Shown here: in pieces, positions 29,312 through 36,097 of the stretch | How positions within the stretch are numbered: position 1 is the stretch's first letter | Layout: each line of letters opens with the position of its first letter | Source of the DNA: a virus | IMG/VR virus record: IMGVR_UViG_3300037189_011739 | Coordinates: 1-64,000 of that record | Strand: one strand, 5' to 3' | Length of the DNA: 64,000 nt | Notes under the pieces: generated by a model | The model's database searches: none | Told to the model about the DNA's origin: nothing | What the model saw: the letters and a program-made list of their open reading frames with translations, nothing else | Position numbers and translations under genes: made by a program

Positions 29312-30628
29312 TTATTGGTTTGGACCATAGAGACCATAACTGTCTCGGATTAATTTTGCACTCGTAAGCATATGTCCACCACGAGGATCAAAGTGATGGC
29401 AAAGTTCTTTAATTAAATAATTTCCACTTTGTTCTGGATCTGCTTCTCCACTATTTGCCTCTTCTATTCTTGGAAAGATTGCTTCAATTATATCACCAAC
29501 TTTAAGATTTAAATTCATAGGTATATTTATATTTACTGCTTGAGTGAATAATAAATTATATCTTGATGAGGATTTGGCAATATCTGCACTATCTCGTCCA
29601 GACTCTTCAAACTTTCCGCCCTTATCCAAATATCCGTGATCTGAAGTTCTTGTCAAAATTCTAGAAATTGAATCTCCAAATTGATCCGAAACCGCAATAC
29701 TTTCTGCCCCGCCTAATTGCGTTGCATTTTTAATTTCATTTTTCAAAGAATACTTATAGATACTAACTTCTTGATTATAAATGTCATAAAAATAAGTTTT
29801 ATTTGCATACATTCCAACTCTTAATGATTTCATCAAATCAATATTTTTTTCATAGTTATAATTTATTATTTTGAAGTTATTGTTTAAATTATTATGTTCA
29901 ATTACCTTCTGTGACCAAGTATAAGAATATTTTGGTTTTTTATTTCCAGTTCCTAATTGTGCATTTGATACTAAACTATCAATACTACGAAAATTAAATC
30001 CATCATAATTTTCATAAAATAAAAATCCAGAAGTTCCTTTTGCTTGCCCACTTTGACCATTTCCAGAAACATTAGATACTTTTGAAATTTGAGAAACTGC
30101 TTTTGGACCCAACCAAGTCAAAATATGAAATGGTTTTTTGTTATTTCCTATGAAACTATAAGAATTTGATGTAGTTTCTATTGTTCCTATTTTATCTGTC
30201 TGTAATGTGTTTTTTAAAATATCATTAACGTGATTATCTAGTGTTAATTTTTGATATTTTTTTTGGCACCTGACTGTTTCGTTTTGTAATCCTTCTTTAG
30301 AAACAAGATGTAATGTAAATTTTTCATTTGTTCCTTCTGCATCAAGATTGCTTACTTTATAAACAAACATTGCTCGTGTTCCATCTAACTTGAAATTGCT
30401 AGATGCGGTTTCAATTTCCATCGCAACACTTTCTCCGCCACGAATAGGAAGACCATTGAATATAGAATGAGTATTCTCCATAACAATTATCATTGTTATA
30501 CAAGGAGATAAAATATCTTCATAATAATTCATTTCAAGAATTGAATTTGTCAAATCAAATTTTTTAGACCCATCCAATGATGCAATCGTAACATATTGAT
30601 ATCTTAAACCAGATACTGCGTTTGTCAT
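29312..30628 (-). CDS. gp27: Baseplate hub protein, gp27-like
   Basis: The 438-residue protein has NSILEMNYYEDILSPC and GLPIRGGE near the N-terminus, a middle of beta strands, and NLKVGDIIEAIFPRI with SGNYLIKELCHHFDPRGGH near the C-terminus. The late strand and G-x-Y-L-I pattern is the one I associate with tail-hub proteins of the gp27 type, which form the trimeric ring below gp5. Its location between the tail-lysin proteins and gp5 supports that; the name rests on order and pattern, not a search. Confidence 0.65.
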   Translation of the reverse strand: MTNAVSGLRYQYVTIASLDGSKKFDLTNSILEMNYYEDILSPCITMIIVMENTHSIFNGLPIRGGESVAMEIETASSNFKLDGTRAMFVYKVSNLDAEGTNEKFTLHLVSKEGLQNETVRCQKKYQKLTLDNHVNDILKNTLQTDKIGTIETTSNSYSFIGNNKKPFHILTWLGPKAVSQISKVSNVSGNGQSGQAKGTSGFLFYENYDGFNFRSIDSLVSNAQLGTGNKKPKYSYTWSQKVIEHNNLNNNFKIINYNYEKNIDLMKSLRVGMYANKTYFYDIYNQEVSIYKYSLKNEIKNATQLGGAESIAVSDQFGDSISRILTRTSDHGYLDKGGKFEESGRDSADIAKSSSRYNLLFTQAVNINIPMNLNLKVGDIIEAIFPRIEEANSGEADPEQSGNYLIKELCHHFDPRGGHMLTSAKLIRDSYGLYGPNQ

Positions 30629-32577
30629 TATGCCGAAGAGAGATTAGTAAGAAGCATAGTCTTCCATAGACTATTTAATATCTGTCCTTCAGGAATTGAT
30701 ACAACAGCAACTCCACCTCCGCCGCCTCCTCCCATTGGAATGGGAACTGGAACCATAGAAGGTTGTCCCGCTGGTTGAGATTGACCAAGCAATATTGCCG
30801 ATCCAGGTGTTTGTTCTTGTAATGGAGTTGTAATTGCTCCTGGAACTTGTGGTGTTTGTCCTGGCGCTATTTGTGCTTGTCTTCTTTCTCTAATACCTTT
30901 GACATAAACATTATAATTTTTTTGTAGTTGTTTGAATTCTGGTAGTTTGGGATCTTTGAGTGCTCTATCTGCTCTTTCTTTGCCCATAGTTTGTTTTGCA
31001 AAATCTTCAATTGATTGTTGCTTTGTGTCTGGGGTACTTCCTCTCATATCTGCCATTCCTTGTGATCCTTTTCCTTTAGATGCCGATTGTTCACTTTGTT
31101 GTTTTGCCTTTTCTTTTGTTAAAGGAGCAGGAATTTTTTGGCCAAGACCAGCAGAAGATGGATTTATTGCAGTTCCACCACGATAAACTTCAAAGTGTAA
31201 GTGTGTATTATCTCCGTCTGGATATAAATTAGCAATTTGTTGTCCCCCATATACAACATCACCAGTATTCACAGAAGGTGAGGTATGATAATATCTTGTC
31301 TTTAATCCACCTCCGTGATCAATTGTGACATAACCATTATATCCATTACTAACTGATTCTACGACTTTACCAGTTTTATAAGCAGCAACTGGAGCATTTA
31401 ATGCTCCGACATGGTGAGTCATGTCAAGTCCAGCATGAGCTCCTTTGCCCCTAGCTCTATCCGCACCAAACTGTTGATTGGCAGATTGTCCTGCTTTTCC
31501 TCCAGGTAGGGGGAAAAAGGTGTCTCCACTTATAGGTCCATCATAGGTTTGATTTGATGGATTGATTGGTGGATATTGCTCCGGTTCCTGATAAGGATTC
31601 ATTGACTCCTCACCTTTACCGACATTTTTATCACCAGGACCAGTTCCAGACATTCCAAACTTTATCTTTTCAAACTTACTTACAACTTTATCAAACTTAT
31701 CAGTAATACTTACAAACGTAACATTACTTGCAGATGCTGCTTCTCTTTGTATTTTTTCTTGTGCTTTCAGTCTCTGGTCCATCTTATCAGCACCAGTCAG
31801 TTTATCTGCTAAATTTCCACCAAGTTGTCCTCCACCAAATCCACCAGCAAGAGAACCAATAATTCCACCAATTACTGCACCAGGAGCTGCACCAACACCA
31901 CCAAACAAAGCGCCTATACCTGCACCTACTGCTGCCCCCGCTTGCCCACCAGCCCAAGCACCGGCAAGACCACCAGCAAGACCACCGCCCGCCCCAACTC
32001 CTGCTTGAAGGTCTGATTGCCCTTCTCCTTTTCTTCCCATAAAGTCGGCAGCAGTCAATCCAACAGATAGTATCCCACCACCAAATTTTCCTATTTTTCC
32101 AATTTTTCCTTTTGGTGCTTTTGTGGAACCAACATCTTCAATTTTGCTTGGTTGTCTATTAAAATTGACAATATTATTTGCTGCCTTAACTCCTGTTGGT
32201 TTAGTTTTTTGTCCTATTTTAGATATTCCCGAAAAAATATTTTTACTTTCCTTTGTTGCTTTTATTGTTGGTTTTCCTCTGCTGAATTTTTTAACTAAAG
32301 ATTTTAATCCAAACCCCCCAACACCAACTCCAAGTGCAGCAAGAAGAGAACCAAATAATCCGCCATTTCCTCCACCACCAAGAGACATTCCAATAGAAAA
32401 CTCAAGGTCTTCTACTTTTTTGACCTTTGGTAATTTTATTTTTTTGACATCTTTATTGCTTGTATCTAACCAATTAATAAAGGCATCATATTCCTTCGCC
32501 CTTTTTGTCAATGGGCGTCTAGTTTTTACAATATTATTGGCAGCAGTTAGTAGGGGAGAAAAAAGTTTAGTTTTCAT
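30628..32577 (-). CDS. Tail-associated protein with M23 endopeptidase domain
   Basis: The 649-residue protein has an N-terminal glycine-rich hydrophobic segment (about residues 185-255), then an M23 (LytM-type) domain: GAHAGLDM (near residue 382, His and Asp ligands), GYVTIDHGGGLKTRYYH, and HLHFEV (near residue 462). M23 enzymes cut peptidoglycan cross-bridges. The C-terminus is Q/P-rich and ends in a polyglycine stretch. It shares one base with the gene upstream, which has a transglycosylase-like motif, so the pair may open the cell wall during tail penetration. Confidence 0.8.
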   Translation of the reverse strand: MKTKLFSPLLTAANNIVKTRRPLTKRAKEYDAFINWLDTSNKDVKKIKLPKVKKVEDLEFSIGMSLGGGGNGGLFGSLLAALGVGVGGFGLKSLVKKFSRGKPTIKATKESKNIFSGISKIGQKTKPTGVKAANNIVNFNRQPSKIEDVGSTKAPKGKIGKIGKFGGGILSVGLTAADFMGRKGEGQSDLQAGVGAGGGLAGGLAGAWAGGQAGAAVGAGIGALFGGVGAAPGAVIGGIIGSLAGGFGGGQLGGNLADKLTGADKMDQRLKAQEKIQREAASASNVTFVSITDKFDKVVSKFEKIKFGMSGTGPGDKNVGKGEESMNPYQEPEQYPPINPSNQTYDGPISGDTFFPLPGGKAGQSANQQFGADRARGKGAHAGLDMTHHVGALNAPVAAYKTGKVVESVSNGYNGYVTIDHGGGLKTRYYHTSPSVNTGDVVYGGQQIANLYPDGDNTHLHFEVYRGGTAINPSSAGLGQKIPAPLTKEKAKQQSEQSASKGKGSQGMADMRGSTPDTKQQSIEDFAKQTMGKERADRALKDPKLPEFKQLQKNYNVYVKGIRERRQAQIAPGQTPQVPGAITTPLQEQTPGSAILLGQSQPAGQPSMVPVPIPMGGGGGGGVAVVSIPEGQILNSLWKTMLLTNLSSA

Positions 32578-34265
32578 TATCCATCCACAATATTATAAAC
32601 CATTCTTGAATATAATGTTAAGAAATTATCATAGTTTGATGATGGATAAAATGGAGCAGTTGGTCCATTTTGTTGTGGTGATGGTGGTGCAGATATTTTA
32701 CCACCACCTCCAGATGATGCTGGTTGAACTTGTGATTGTTGTTGGAATGGAATGACTATTGGTTGTGGTCGAGATTTTGATGCTGACGGTGCTTGTGGTG
32801 CTTGTTGTCCTGGTTTTGTTGGTGTTTGTGGAATGGGGTTTCCTGCTGCGACTTGGCCCATTCTTCTTTTTGCGGAATTAATCCATCTTTGTATTTCTAC
32901 TCCAGCAGAATCTGATATTGATTTTCCTTTAAGAAAATCTGTAAGACTGCCCTCTCCAAGTTGTGCTCCCGCGAGATTTGATAATCTTTCCGTTGCAGAC
33001 ATACCTTTATATTCTGGGGATAATTGCATCATTCTTCTATTCATCAATATAGTTCTTCCCATATAAATTTTTTCTTGTAATTCTGGATTAGATAGATATT
33101 CCTGCTGCGATGGAGTTGGAATTCCCATCACAGCAGAAGCAGATGCAATTTCCCCACTTCCCATTTGATATCTTCCAGCAAATCTACCTCCAGCACCACC
33201 CATTTGATTGTATCTTGCTCCTTCTACATCTGCAATTCCTTGTTTATACGCATTAAATTGTTCCTGTGATATTCCCAATTCAGAAAGACCTTGCTTATCG
33301 TCTTTTATTGTAACTCCAGCAAGAGAACCACCTCCACCAGCAGGACTACCACCAGGAGGGGCACCAGGACTAGCAGGTTTTGAATTAGAACCGGAACTAG
33401 AACTTGCACCAGAAGATTTTCCGGGTTTTCCTTTCAATCCATCAAGTATTTTATCAAATCTATCTAAAATGGAATTGAATTTATCTAAAACATTTCCTGG
33501 AACTTCTGGTGTAGTATTTCCTGGTTGGACATCTTCGCCTCCAGGTTGAGAAAGACCACTCACAGCAGCCCCAGCACCAAGAGCAGCAGTACCACCTAAA
33601 AGTAATTTTCCTATTCCGCCCCCACCACCTTTCAGTCCTTTTGGTATTTTTGATAATAAATTCCCTTCTTGCTTCATCGCAGGACCAGCAACATTTGGTG
33701 CTCGTTTTCCCGCCATTCCAGGAACCAATCCACCCGCCAATCCACCAAGTGCAGACATTATAGCACCAATTATTCCTCCACCACCTCCACCACCAGAAAG
33801 TCCAGAGATTTGTTCTATAATTTTAAGTATTGCCTTTCTTAATGCCTTTGCAACATCAAAAGTTTCTACAAAAGTAGCCTTTAAATTGTCTATATTTTCT
33901 TTAACTCTATCTAAATTCTTCTTTGCTCCAAAGAAAGTGATAAAGGCAAGTGCTTCTTTAAATTTATCAAAGAATCCGCCAAAGAATTTAGAACTTTTCT
34001 TTTCCTTTGTTTCTTTATTCCCAAAAATATTTTGAATTGTATTTGTGGTATTAAAGACAGTTGAAGAAAGGTTACTGATTAATGCCTGCAAATTATTTGG
34101 TTTTGCCGATACTTTTGCTCTATCAAAATTTACAATTTTATTCTTCGCACTAGAAAGAATTGAGGAACCAAGAGAAGAACCACCAGAAACAAATTTAAGT
34201 GCTTGTTCCTTTGTTGGTTTTTGCTTTCCTATAATTTTTTCTGGTTGAAGAACAGAACTAACCAT
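32577..34265 (-). CDS. Virion protein with transglycosylase-like motif
   Basis: The 562-residue protein contains IADVEGARYNQMGG followed by GRFAGRYQMGSGEI (about residues 340-370). A Glu with a GRYQ motif about 20 residues later is the pattern of lysozyme and lytic-transglycosylase-like phage tail enzymes. The N-terminal part is helical with K/E-rich segments and a Gly-rich hydrophobic stretch (about residues 155-200). The family is inferred from that motif only. It is followed by the M23 protein and overlaps the last 8 bases of gp51. Confidence 0.65.
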   Translation of the reverse strand: MVSSVLQPEKIIGKQKPTKEQALKFVSGGSSLGSSILSSAKNKIVNFDRAKVSAKPNNLQALISNLSSTVFNTTNTIQNIFGNKETKEKKSSKFFGGFFDKFKEALAFITFFGAKKNLDRVKENIDNLKATFVETFDVAKALRKAILKIIEQISGLSGGGGGGGIIGAIMSALGGLAGGLVPGMAGKRAPNVAGPAMKQEGNLLSKIPKGLKGGGGGIGKLLLGGTAALGAGAAVSGLSQPGGEDVQPGNTTPEVPGNVLDKFNSILDRFDKILDGLKGKPGKSSGASSSSGSNSKPASPGAPPGGSPAGGGGSLAGVTIKDDKQGLSELGISQEQFNAYKQGIADVEGARYNQMGGAGGRFAGRYQMGSGEIASASAVMGIPTPSQQEYLSNPELQEKIYMGRTILMNRRMMQLSPEYKGMSATERLSNLAGAQLGEGSLTDFLKGKSISDSAGVEIQRWINSAKRRMGQVAAGNPIPQTPTKPGQQAPQAPSASKSRPQPIVIPFQQQSQVQPASSGGGGKISAPPSPQQNGPTAPFYPSSNYDNFLTLYSRMVYNIVDG

Positions 34266-34434
34266 TACTTTGTTGTGCCTTTAAGTTTTCTTCTTCTACA
34301 AACTGATTTAATAATGCTAGGTAAATGTCCCGTTCCCAGGGCATCATATTTTCTATCTCGGTCAAAGAATATTTATAATGCGTCATCAAAGAGAAATTAA
34401 TTTTAAAATATGACTCAAGATCCATATGAGCCAT
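34258..34434 (-). CDS. gp51: gp51-like hub assembly protein, possible frameshift extension of gp26
   Basis: A 58-residue protein starting MAHMDLESYF and containing YSLTEIENMMPWERDIYLAL then a charged helix. The M-P-W-E-R-(D/E)-I-Y motif is one I associate with T4 gp51-type hub assembly factors and with the second part of tail chaperones. Its ATG lies just past the gp26 stop. The same frame is open further upstream into gp26 and is reached by a -1 shift at 34443-34449, so it may be made alone, as a gp26 fusion, or both. It was too short to be an obvious gene. Confidence 0.75.
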   Translation of the reverse strand: MAHMDLESYFKINFSLMTHYKYSLTEIENMMPWERDIYLALLNQFVEEENLKAQQSNG

Positions 34435-34436
34435 TA

Positions 34437-35171
34437 TCAGCCGAAAAAACTTGTCAATCCCTCCAACGTAACTTCACTTTCTTTTTTTGTATTTGGATTA
34501 GTCACTTTGAAAGTGTGTGCAAGTTTAGGCATCGTATTGAAAAACTTTTCTACTTCTTGGAACTGTTGTGGAGTCAAAGTCTCAATCCAATCATTAAGTT
34601 CCTTTTTGGTACAATCTGCTGCCGCCCAGGACTCATCGGCATTAAAGACTATATCAATACAAGAAGAAACGATATCAAATGATTTGTTGATTTGTTCAGT
34701 AGAAGAATTCTTCTTTGAACTAAAATCAAAATTATTCGCAATAAATTCATTCAAAGATGGATACTTCATTCTCAATACCAATCCATCACCCAAATTAATA
34801 TCAGTAGAGTGATTTGGGTCTTTTTGGACTTGAATTTCATCAATATAAATCTTAACTGGAACTTCGGTTGTTCCATCATCACTACAAGTCACAATCAGTT
34901 CAATTGCTTCACCAACTGAATGTCCACGAACATTTAGAAAGATATATTCAATATCAAAAGTAGGAAGTTCTTCTACTTTAATGCCTTTCGTAATAATACA
35001 ATCCTTTAAAATTTGTTTGATTGCTGATGTAATTTGAATCACATCTTCGCTTTCAAGAGCAAGAATAAGTATCTTTTCTTCTTTGACTAAAAATGGGCGA
35101 TATTTGATACTTTTTCCTGTTGATGGCAAATCAAGAGTATATTGTGGCGTAGCAATTTTAGGTAAAGGCAT
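34437..35171 (-). CDS. gp26: Baseplate hub assembly protein gp26-like
   Basis: The 244-residue protein has IKYRPFLVKEEKILILALE near residue 18, a signature I know from the T4 baseplate family containing gp26, plus NVRGHSVGEAIEL and a helical acidic C-terminal half ending LTSFFG. gp26 acts with gp51 during hub assembly and is not thought to stay in the mature baseplate. Preceded by an AATAAATA late promoter, 27 bases upstream. The C-terminus carries the slippery site described separately. Confidence 0.8.
   Translation of the reverse strand: MPLPKIATPQYTLDLPSTGKSIKYRPFLVKEEKILILALESEDVIQITSAIKQILKDCIITKGIKVEELPTFDIEYIFLNVRGHSVGEAIELIVTCSDDGTTEVPVKIYIDEIQVQKDPNHSTDINLGDGLVLRMKYPSLNEFIANNFDFSSKKNSSTEQINKSFDIVSSCIDIVFNADESWAAADCTKKELNDWIETLTPQQFQEVEKFFNTMPKLAHTFKVTNPNTKKESEVTLEGLTSFFG
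34443..34449 (-). promoter_or_regulatory. Slippery heptamer T TTT TTC for -1 frameshift gp26 to gp51
   Basis: In the gp26 frame the coding strand reads AGT TTT TTC GGC TGA, so a TTTTTTC heptamer of the X XXY YYZ type sits one codon before the stop. After a -1 slip the frame reads TTT CGG CTG ATA and then enters the gp51 ATG, with no stop until 34258. Tail genes of many phages (lambda G/GT) use this arrangement. Confidence 0.65.
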
Positions 35172-35197: not shown

Positions 35198-35205
35198 TAT
35201 TTATT
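35198..35205 (-). promoter_or_regulatory. Late promoter AATAAATA for the gp26 operon
   Basis: The minus strand reads AATAAATA ending 26 bases before the gp26 ATG at 35171; it overlaps the last codons of the gp54 gene. Spacing agrees with other late sites here. Confidence 0.6.
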
Positions 35206-36097
35206 GGATAGTTTCTCCTCTATATATCGCCGCCTGTCTATATGCCTCTTCATTGCTACCAAAAGCAGGGCCATAATATTGAACAGGAGTTGTCGTTGGT
35301 TTAGGTTTGTCTGTATTGTTTAGATTTGATGGATATGGATTTATCTGTGTTCCTTTATGTTTTATTACAGTATATCTAGTATAACTAAAATTAATTGTAG
35401 TTTTAGTTATTGTGCTTCCTTCATAAGATAATGGAAGTGCAGTGATATTAGTTGGAAAAGCATCAATAAATTGATAAGTCAAAAGATTTTGTGTCTCGGT
35501 TGGACTTTTTGGATTATTTGGATTTGACAAAAAGTCCCTTTCAAATTTGGTGATTGAAATTATTCTTTTGTATTGATCTGGATATTTAAATCTATAATAA
35601 TTTTCACTTTGCTCATACCCAACTTGTCCACGAGGATTTGGTATTTGTTCTCCGTCTTTTGTGTAAATTGGATTTATAAAATTCATCCATTCTTCAAATA
35701 AACGAATAATATTATATTCACTATCAACATAAAAAGTTAAATTGAAATCTGAAAATATTCTACGATTTGGAAATCTTTCAATTATGCCCTGACGACTTCC
35801 ACTTTCTTCTCCAACGTCAAAAGTTGCTCCGGGAAGAACTGCTTCCGCACACATAAAATCATAAGTAAATGTTTTTGAAATATTATTAGTTATTCCACAT
35901 TTGTTTAAATATTCTAATAAATTTCCATCCTGTGCCCCATTTGATCCACCTAGAAACATATTAACTTTAAATTGACTTGTAAGAGATACATTACCAAACA
36001 TCTCTTGAACTGAAGGCAAAGAAGATCCCCCCATATCTCTCGGGGTAGTCATCTTTACATAAAGAGGATCTACTCTATATGTATTTGCTCTAGCCAT
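35201..36097 (-). CDS. gp54: Baseplate tail-tube initiator, gp54-like
   Basis: The 298-residue protein contains VSLTSQFKVNMFLGG, a tail-tube-type strand, EEWMNFINPIY and KFERDF, patterns seen in the tube-like proteins gp48 and gp54 that start tail-tube polymerisation. In T4-like cyanophages this gene stands opposite gp4, as here. The first gene of the leftward baseplate group; gp4 starts 31 bases away on the other strand. Confidence 0.7.
   Translation of the reverse strand: MARANTYRVDPLYVKMTTPRDMGGSSLPSVQEMFGNVSLTSQFKVNMFLGGSNGAQDGNLLEYLNKCGITNNISKTFTYDFMCAEAVLPGATFDVGEESGSRQGIIERFPNRRIFSDFNLTFYVDSEYNIIRLFEEWMNFINPIYTKDGEQIPNPRGQVGYEQSENYYRFKYPDQYKRIISITKFERDFLSNPNNPKSPTETQNLLTYQFIDAFPTNITALPLSYEGSTITKTTINFSYTRYTVIKHKGTQINPYPSNLNNTDKPKPTTTPVQYYGPAFGSNEEAYRQAAIYRGETIQ

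Follow-up and report, generated by a model that had tools for sequence, protein, structure and literature searches.

In the virus record examined here, the reading frame of gp51 begins just past the stop codon of gp26. Do the two frames encode two independent proteins, or is gp51 the end of a longer protein that is made when ribosomes slip back by one base near the end of gp26? The window, which is the whole stretch of 64,000 nucleotides that was analysed, is part of a 70,663-base IMG/VR virus record. Its minus strand carries, in this order, the tail tube protein (36097-35201), gp26 (35171-34437), gp51 (34434-34258) and two large open reading frames from 34265. The locus contains the following features:

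35201-36097, minus strand: tail tube protein, upstream of gp26 (PF23849 Phage_TTP_2; phrog_45)
34437-35171, minus strand: gp26, 244 aa, putative tail assembly chaperone TAC-N (PF12322 T4_baseplate; phrog_150; AF2 model; structural matches of the N-domain)
34474-34476, minus strand: TGA, the nearest -1-frame stop 5' of the heptamer, which limits the possible shift site
34460-34463, minus strand: GAGG within GGAGGGA, an SD-like element that starts 14 nt 5' of the heptamer with a spacer of 10 nt (GAG enrichment)
34443-34449, minus strand: slippery heptamer T TTT TTC, in the gp26 frame ..AGT TTT TTC GGC TGA (sequence and conservation)
34437-34439, minus strand: TGA, zero-frame stop of gp26 and end of the short product (sequence)
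34261-34449, minus strand: -1 frame from the heptamer to the last gp51 sense codon, 63 codons without a stop
34258-34434, minus strand: gp51 reading frame, 58 aa, phrog_634, the probable C-terminal extension (TAC-C) of a frameshift product
30628-34265, minus strand: two large open reading frames directly downstream of gp51, candidate tape measure region

The original prediction placed a slippery T TTT TTC in the gp26 frame, one codon ahead of the TGA, and this heptamer is present at 34449-34443. The 3' end of gp26 reads ACG TTG GAG GGA TTG ACA AGT TTT TTC GGC TGA, and the stop is followed by TA and the ATG of gp51. The -1 reading is TTT TTT CGG CTG ATA ATG GCT and onwards. As had been proposed, it passes through CGG CTG ATA to the gp51 ATG and then runs for 58 codons, open as far as the gp51 stop. 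Translation of the slipped frame gives a gp26-gp51 fusion of 304 residues, close to the 300 or so that had been estimated. A heptamer of the type X XXY YYZ thus lies in the zero frame just ahead of a zero-frame stop, which is one of the marks of a programmed -1 frameshift site.

The tail tube gene is clearly upstream of gp26, in the place that it has in the canonical order of tail tube, TAC and tape measure. The downstream frames of the window are only weakly tape-measure-like. The 562-aa frame contains an endolysin-like stretch, and the 649-aa frame has M23 peptidase and weak tape-measure matches. The second gene after gp51 is described as a putative tape measure in pelagiphage HTVC008M, and in Sinorhizobium phage phiM12 as resembling tape measure proteins. 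The stop of gp51 overlaps the start of the 562-aa frame (ATGGTTAG, window 34258-34265), which suggests translational coupling.

Conservation of the gp26-gp51 junction

Loci with a complete gp26 end (186) were reduced to 159 distinct junctions. The sequence NNT TTT TT(C/T/A) is present in frame at 152 of the 159, so the heptamer that had been proposed for this virus is conserved in its relatives. In these 152 junctions the distance from the heptamer to the gp26 stop is the same to within one codon, and the third codon at the heptamer is TTC in 137, TTT in 8 and TTA in 7. The second element of the proposal, the open -1 frame, is found in all 152, where an extension of 58-68 codons without a stop encodes a protein that can be aligned and is conserved. 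From the heptamer to a conserved P[WFY]E-type (PWE-type) motif there are 36 codons in 143 of the 152. The heptamer is carried by Kyanoviridae-type cyanophages, HTVC008M and phiM12, as well as by Aeromonas 65-type phages, Vibrio phage D480 and Acinetobacter phage nACB2. A viral search that used gp26 of Vibrio phage D480 as its query returned no matches.

The seven junctions that lack the heptamer include T4 and Klebsiella phage PWKp16, in which the genes are separate, and four phages that belong to the Ackermannviridae or lie close to them and have T-rich junctions of other kinds. L177, counted among the seven, was rejected as an exception; its gp26 frame stops early in the contig and a T-run junction is present further on.

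The pattern of variation indicates what is being conserved. The T6 run is invariant in all 52 members of a non-redundant set, drawn from junctions of the usual spacing and sharing less than 80% nucleotide identity. The codon just ahead of the heptamer may specify Ser, Asn, Asp, Ala or Thr, yet it always ends in T. The Phe-Phe pair at the junction is written TTT TTC in 137 of 145 cases, compared with 14 of the 147 Phe-Phe pairs at other places in these genes. In seven cases the third residue has changed from Phe to Leu (TTC to TTA) and the heptamer has been kept. Judged from these alignments, the constraint at the junction is a nucleotide signal and not a protein signal, because the T6 run and the T-ending preceding codon hold at silent positions while the amino acids vary.

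A similar bias is found upstream. Most junctions have an SD-like GAGG, GGAG, AAGG or AGGA at 15-12 nt 5' of the heptamer. The Glu codon at this site is GAG in 82 of 136 junctions; across gp26 as a whole the share of GAG is 31%, and where Glu precedes Gly it is 15 of 70. The enrichment of the SD-like element is only moderate. In the -1 frameshift of E. coli dnaX, an SD-like purine element lies about 10 nt upstream of a slippery heptamer, A AAA AAG, which is followed by a strong downstream stem-loop. By analogy, the GAGG/AAGG element is a possible dnaX-like stimulator that may promote slippage. The likeness to dnaX extends to the upstream element but not to the stem-loop, since a conserved downstream RNA stimulator was not found: RNAalifold on 28 junctions gave 4 weak pairs and a consensus of -1.04 kcal/mol, and downstream RNA structure was rejected as a stimulator on this value.

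A separate observation concerns the interior of the gp51 frame, where TATAAATA lies at window 34377-34370 on the minus strand. The motif NATAAATA in this frame is similar to the late promoters of T4-type phages (TATAAATA). At codons 24-25 past the heptamer, silent sites are strongly conserved, with AAA in 46 of 48 Lys codons and CAT in 47 of 50 His codons. The late-promoter-like motif NATAAATA could serve the downstream tail gene.

gp51 start codons and the competing explanations

An independent gp51 gene should keep a start codon. In 80 of the 152 junctions the codons that separate the heptamer from the conserved gp51 core include no ATG, GTG or TTG, which counts against independence; an intact gp51 in these phages can be reached only by a shift. 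In 41 junctions there is no start codon within the first 14 codons. On a quick gp26 tree the presence or absence of the start changes at least six times, and the T6 run is fixed throughout. In 34 of the 152 junctions a -1-frame stop abuts the heptamer on its 5' side, so the shift must fall between that stop and the gp26 stop.

Why, then, do some phages have an ATG beside the gp26 stop? An ATG is found at codon 5 of the -1 frame, adjoining the stop, in 68 of the 152 junctions, including the window (TGATAATG). Ribosomes that terminate on gp26 could reinitiate at such an overlapping or adjoining ATG and make a separate gp51, the heptamer being incidental, and in the window reinitiation could also yield free gp51. 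As the full explanation of the locus, however, this is very unlikely. It does not account for the 80 junctions without a start ahead of the gp51 core or for a heptamer that is invariant at synonymous positions, and the sequence conservation of gp51 begins upstream of some annotated gp51 starts. An SD-like sequence precedes none of the 68 ATGs, that of the window included, though such sequences are rare before gp26 too.

The conserved T6 run could also be read as a site where the polymerase slips, so that the -1 frame is carried by the message itself and ribosomal frameshifting is not needed. A T6 run that is mostly ended by C is short for polymerase slippage, and the codon register of the run is invariant while its last base is C, T or A, as is predicted for tandem tRNA slippage. 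Transcriptional slippage is therefore an even less probable explanation than reinitiation. A run of T residues might also be expected by chance in AT-rich DNA in which TTT is the preferred Phe codon (70%). The spelling TTT TTC is rare at the other Phe-Phe pairs of gp26, and the conservation of the junction already refutes a chance T run, to which we attach a negligible probability.

The explanation that we favour, with high confidence, is that gp26 and gp51 form one tail assembly chaperone locus that is read by a programmed -1 shift to give a short and a long protein. Most ribosomes would terminate at the end of gp26 and so produce the short chaperone, TAC-N. In a fraction, tRNA-Phe would re-pair with TTT TTT, so that the ribosome slips one base back on T TTT TTC, passes the gp26 stop and adds about 60 residues from the gp51 frame, making the 304-aa long form, TAC-NC. 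By analogy with lambda G/GT, the role of the short form would be to coat the tape measure protein, and the C-terminal part of the long form would recruit tail-tube subunits. Both forms would depart before the virion is completed.

Predicted protein fold and the two proposed chaperone forms

The assignment of gp26 as a chaperone draws on its predicted structure and its relation to the T4 proteins. gp26 matches PF12322 (T4_baseplate) with an E value of 9e-69, and its AF2 model is confident, with a pLDDT of 88.7. Among solved structures, residues 1-88 match HK97 gp13 (2OB9, Z 7.8) and YqbN (3KLU, Z 7.2), and the next row has a Z of 4.9. Both HK97 gp13 and YqbN are named tail assembly chaperones (PMC9603447). 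The top Foldseek match for gp26 is also 2OB9, with a weak E value of 0.8. The modelled N-domain is thus suggestive of a TAC-N fold and appears chaperone-like. Searching solved structures by sequence with gp26 turned up nothing of use, and neither gp26 nor gp51 nor the fusion had a sequence match to any Pfam or PHROG family that bears the name tail assembly chaperone.

The relation to T4 is informative about gp51. With hhalign, T4 gp51 (249 aa) aligns with the fusion over nearly its full length and across the junction (E 2.8e-13); the match of T4 gp26 is to the gp26 part (E 5.9e-18). The two T4 proteins also align with each other (E 2.6e-10); T4 gp51 is a full-length paralogue of gp26, encoded by a separate gene on the opposite strand from gp26. 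The phrog_150 score is higher for the fusion (298 bits) than for gp26 alone (258 bits), and the phrog_634 profile covers both sides of the junction. PMC3004832 counts both T4 proteins among the hub assembly chaperones and reports that gp51 is missing from the virion. The alignments indicate that T4 encodes the short and long forms separately. This is not the case in the window, where the gp51 frame is a C-terminal extension only, and the virus most likely makes both forms from one locus, as far as can be told from the sequences. The N-domain fold and the alignment of T4 gp51 with the fusion support the suggestion that the locus encodes a chaperone pair like lambda G/GT. In BFVD, the predicted viral protein A0A8S0HX62 (182 aa) is a match for the gp26 model (45% identity) as well as for the gp51 model (62%), and it may be a gp26-gp51 fusion that was deposited as one chain.

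Known systems and annotation

Like lambda G/GT, the locus would produce a short and a long chaperone through a -1 slip close to where the upstream frame ends, and it adjoins the tail tube gene and the candidate tape measure region. The heptamers differ (G GGA AAG in lambda, T TTT TTC in the window), no usable sequence similarity was found between the two systems and gp26, unlike its lambda counterpart, has a long part beyond the TAC-like N-domain. The TAC genes of the Vandenendeviridae and Andersonviridae, which are other phage families, have a conserved poly-T -1 shift where TAC-N ends, together with an open C-terminal frame that is often annotated as a separate gene, as in the T4-like phages; their motif is GTTTTT (PMC12846349).

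The original prediction knew of no described gp26/gp51 shift in T4-like cyanophages. That view does not hold, judging from how the earlier work is cited. Vladimirov, Gautam and Davidson identified the TAC genes of T4-like phages in 2022 (Virology 566:9-15), and PMC12846349 credits them with poly-T -1 frameshift signals in the TAC-N genes of these phages. Their title refers to another mechanism in some T4-like phages, which according to PMC10274946 is the use of separate short and long genes. The T4-like genes 26/51 belong to the same gene family as the pair in the window, which differs in being an unannotated environmental member. The abstract of the 2022 work reportedly describes frameshifting as apparently conserved across several groups of T4-like phages, with T4 itself making use of genes 26 and 51. 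The gp26/gp51 shift is therefore not new; going by the account in citing papers, it is real, conserved and essentially described already, and the window is a further instance. The start-codon losses and the silent-site constraint are independent support that is not known to have been described earlier.

The Kuttervirus-type Ackermannviridae (L194-L211, L090) present a different junction, in which gp26 ends GA(A/G) ATT TTC AT(T/C) TAA. At several of these loci the -1 frame opens only around the ATT codon, and 15 of 18 loci have no start codon within 32 nt after the stop. The sequence of this junction suggests an obligatory -1 shift on TTTTC that dispenses with a standard heptamer. A broader view can be proposed, for and against which we would give even odds. 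In Kyanoviridae-type phages gp51 would be no gene at all but only a C-terminal extension of gp26 made by a -1 shift, with a T-heptamer and an SD-like element and no RNA structure. The related Ackermannviridae would do likewise with a reduced ATTTTC site without the standard heptamer, and in T4 the separate gene 51 would provide a hard-wired copy of the long form as an alternative to the shift.

None of the 14 database records examined carries a joining of gp26 and gp51 or a ribosomal slippage mark. In the records of Syn2 and Aeromonas phage 65.2 the gp51 stretch has been left unannotated, and in those of P-HM1 and HTVC008M the gp51 start is placed inside the conserved core. The finding would correct the annotation of many cyanophage genomes in which gp51 is given as separate, internally started or omitted. 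The loss of gp51 starts in several lineages is strong comparative evidence for the frameshift, and it makes the frameshift directly testable by proteomics of infected cyanobacteria.
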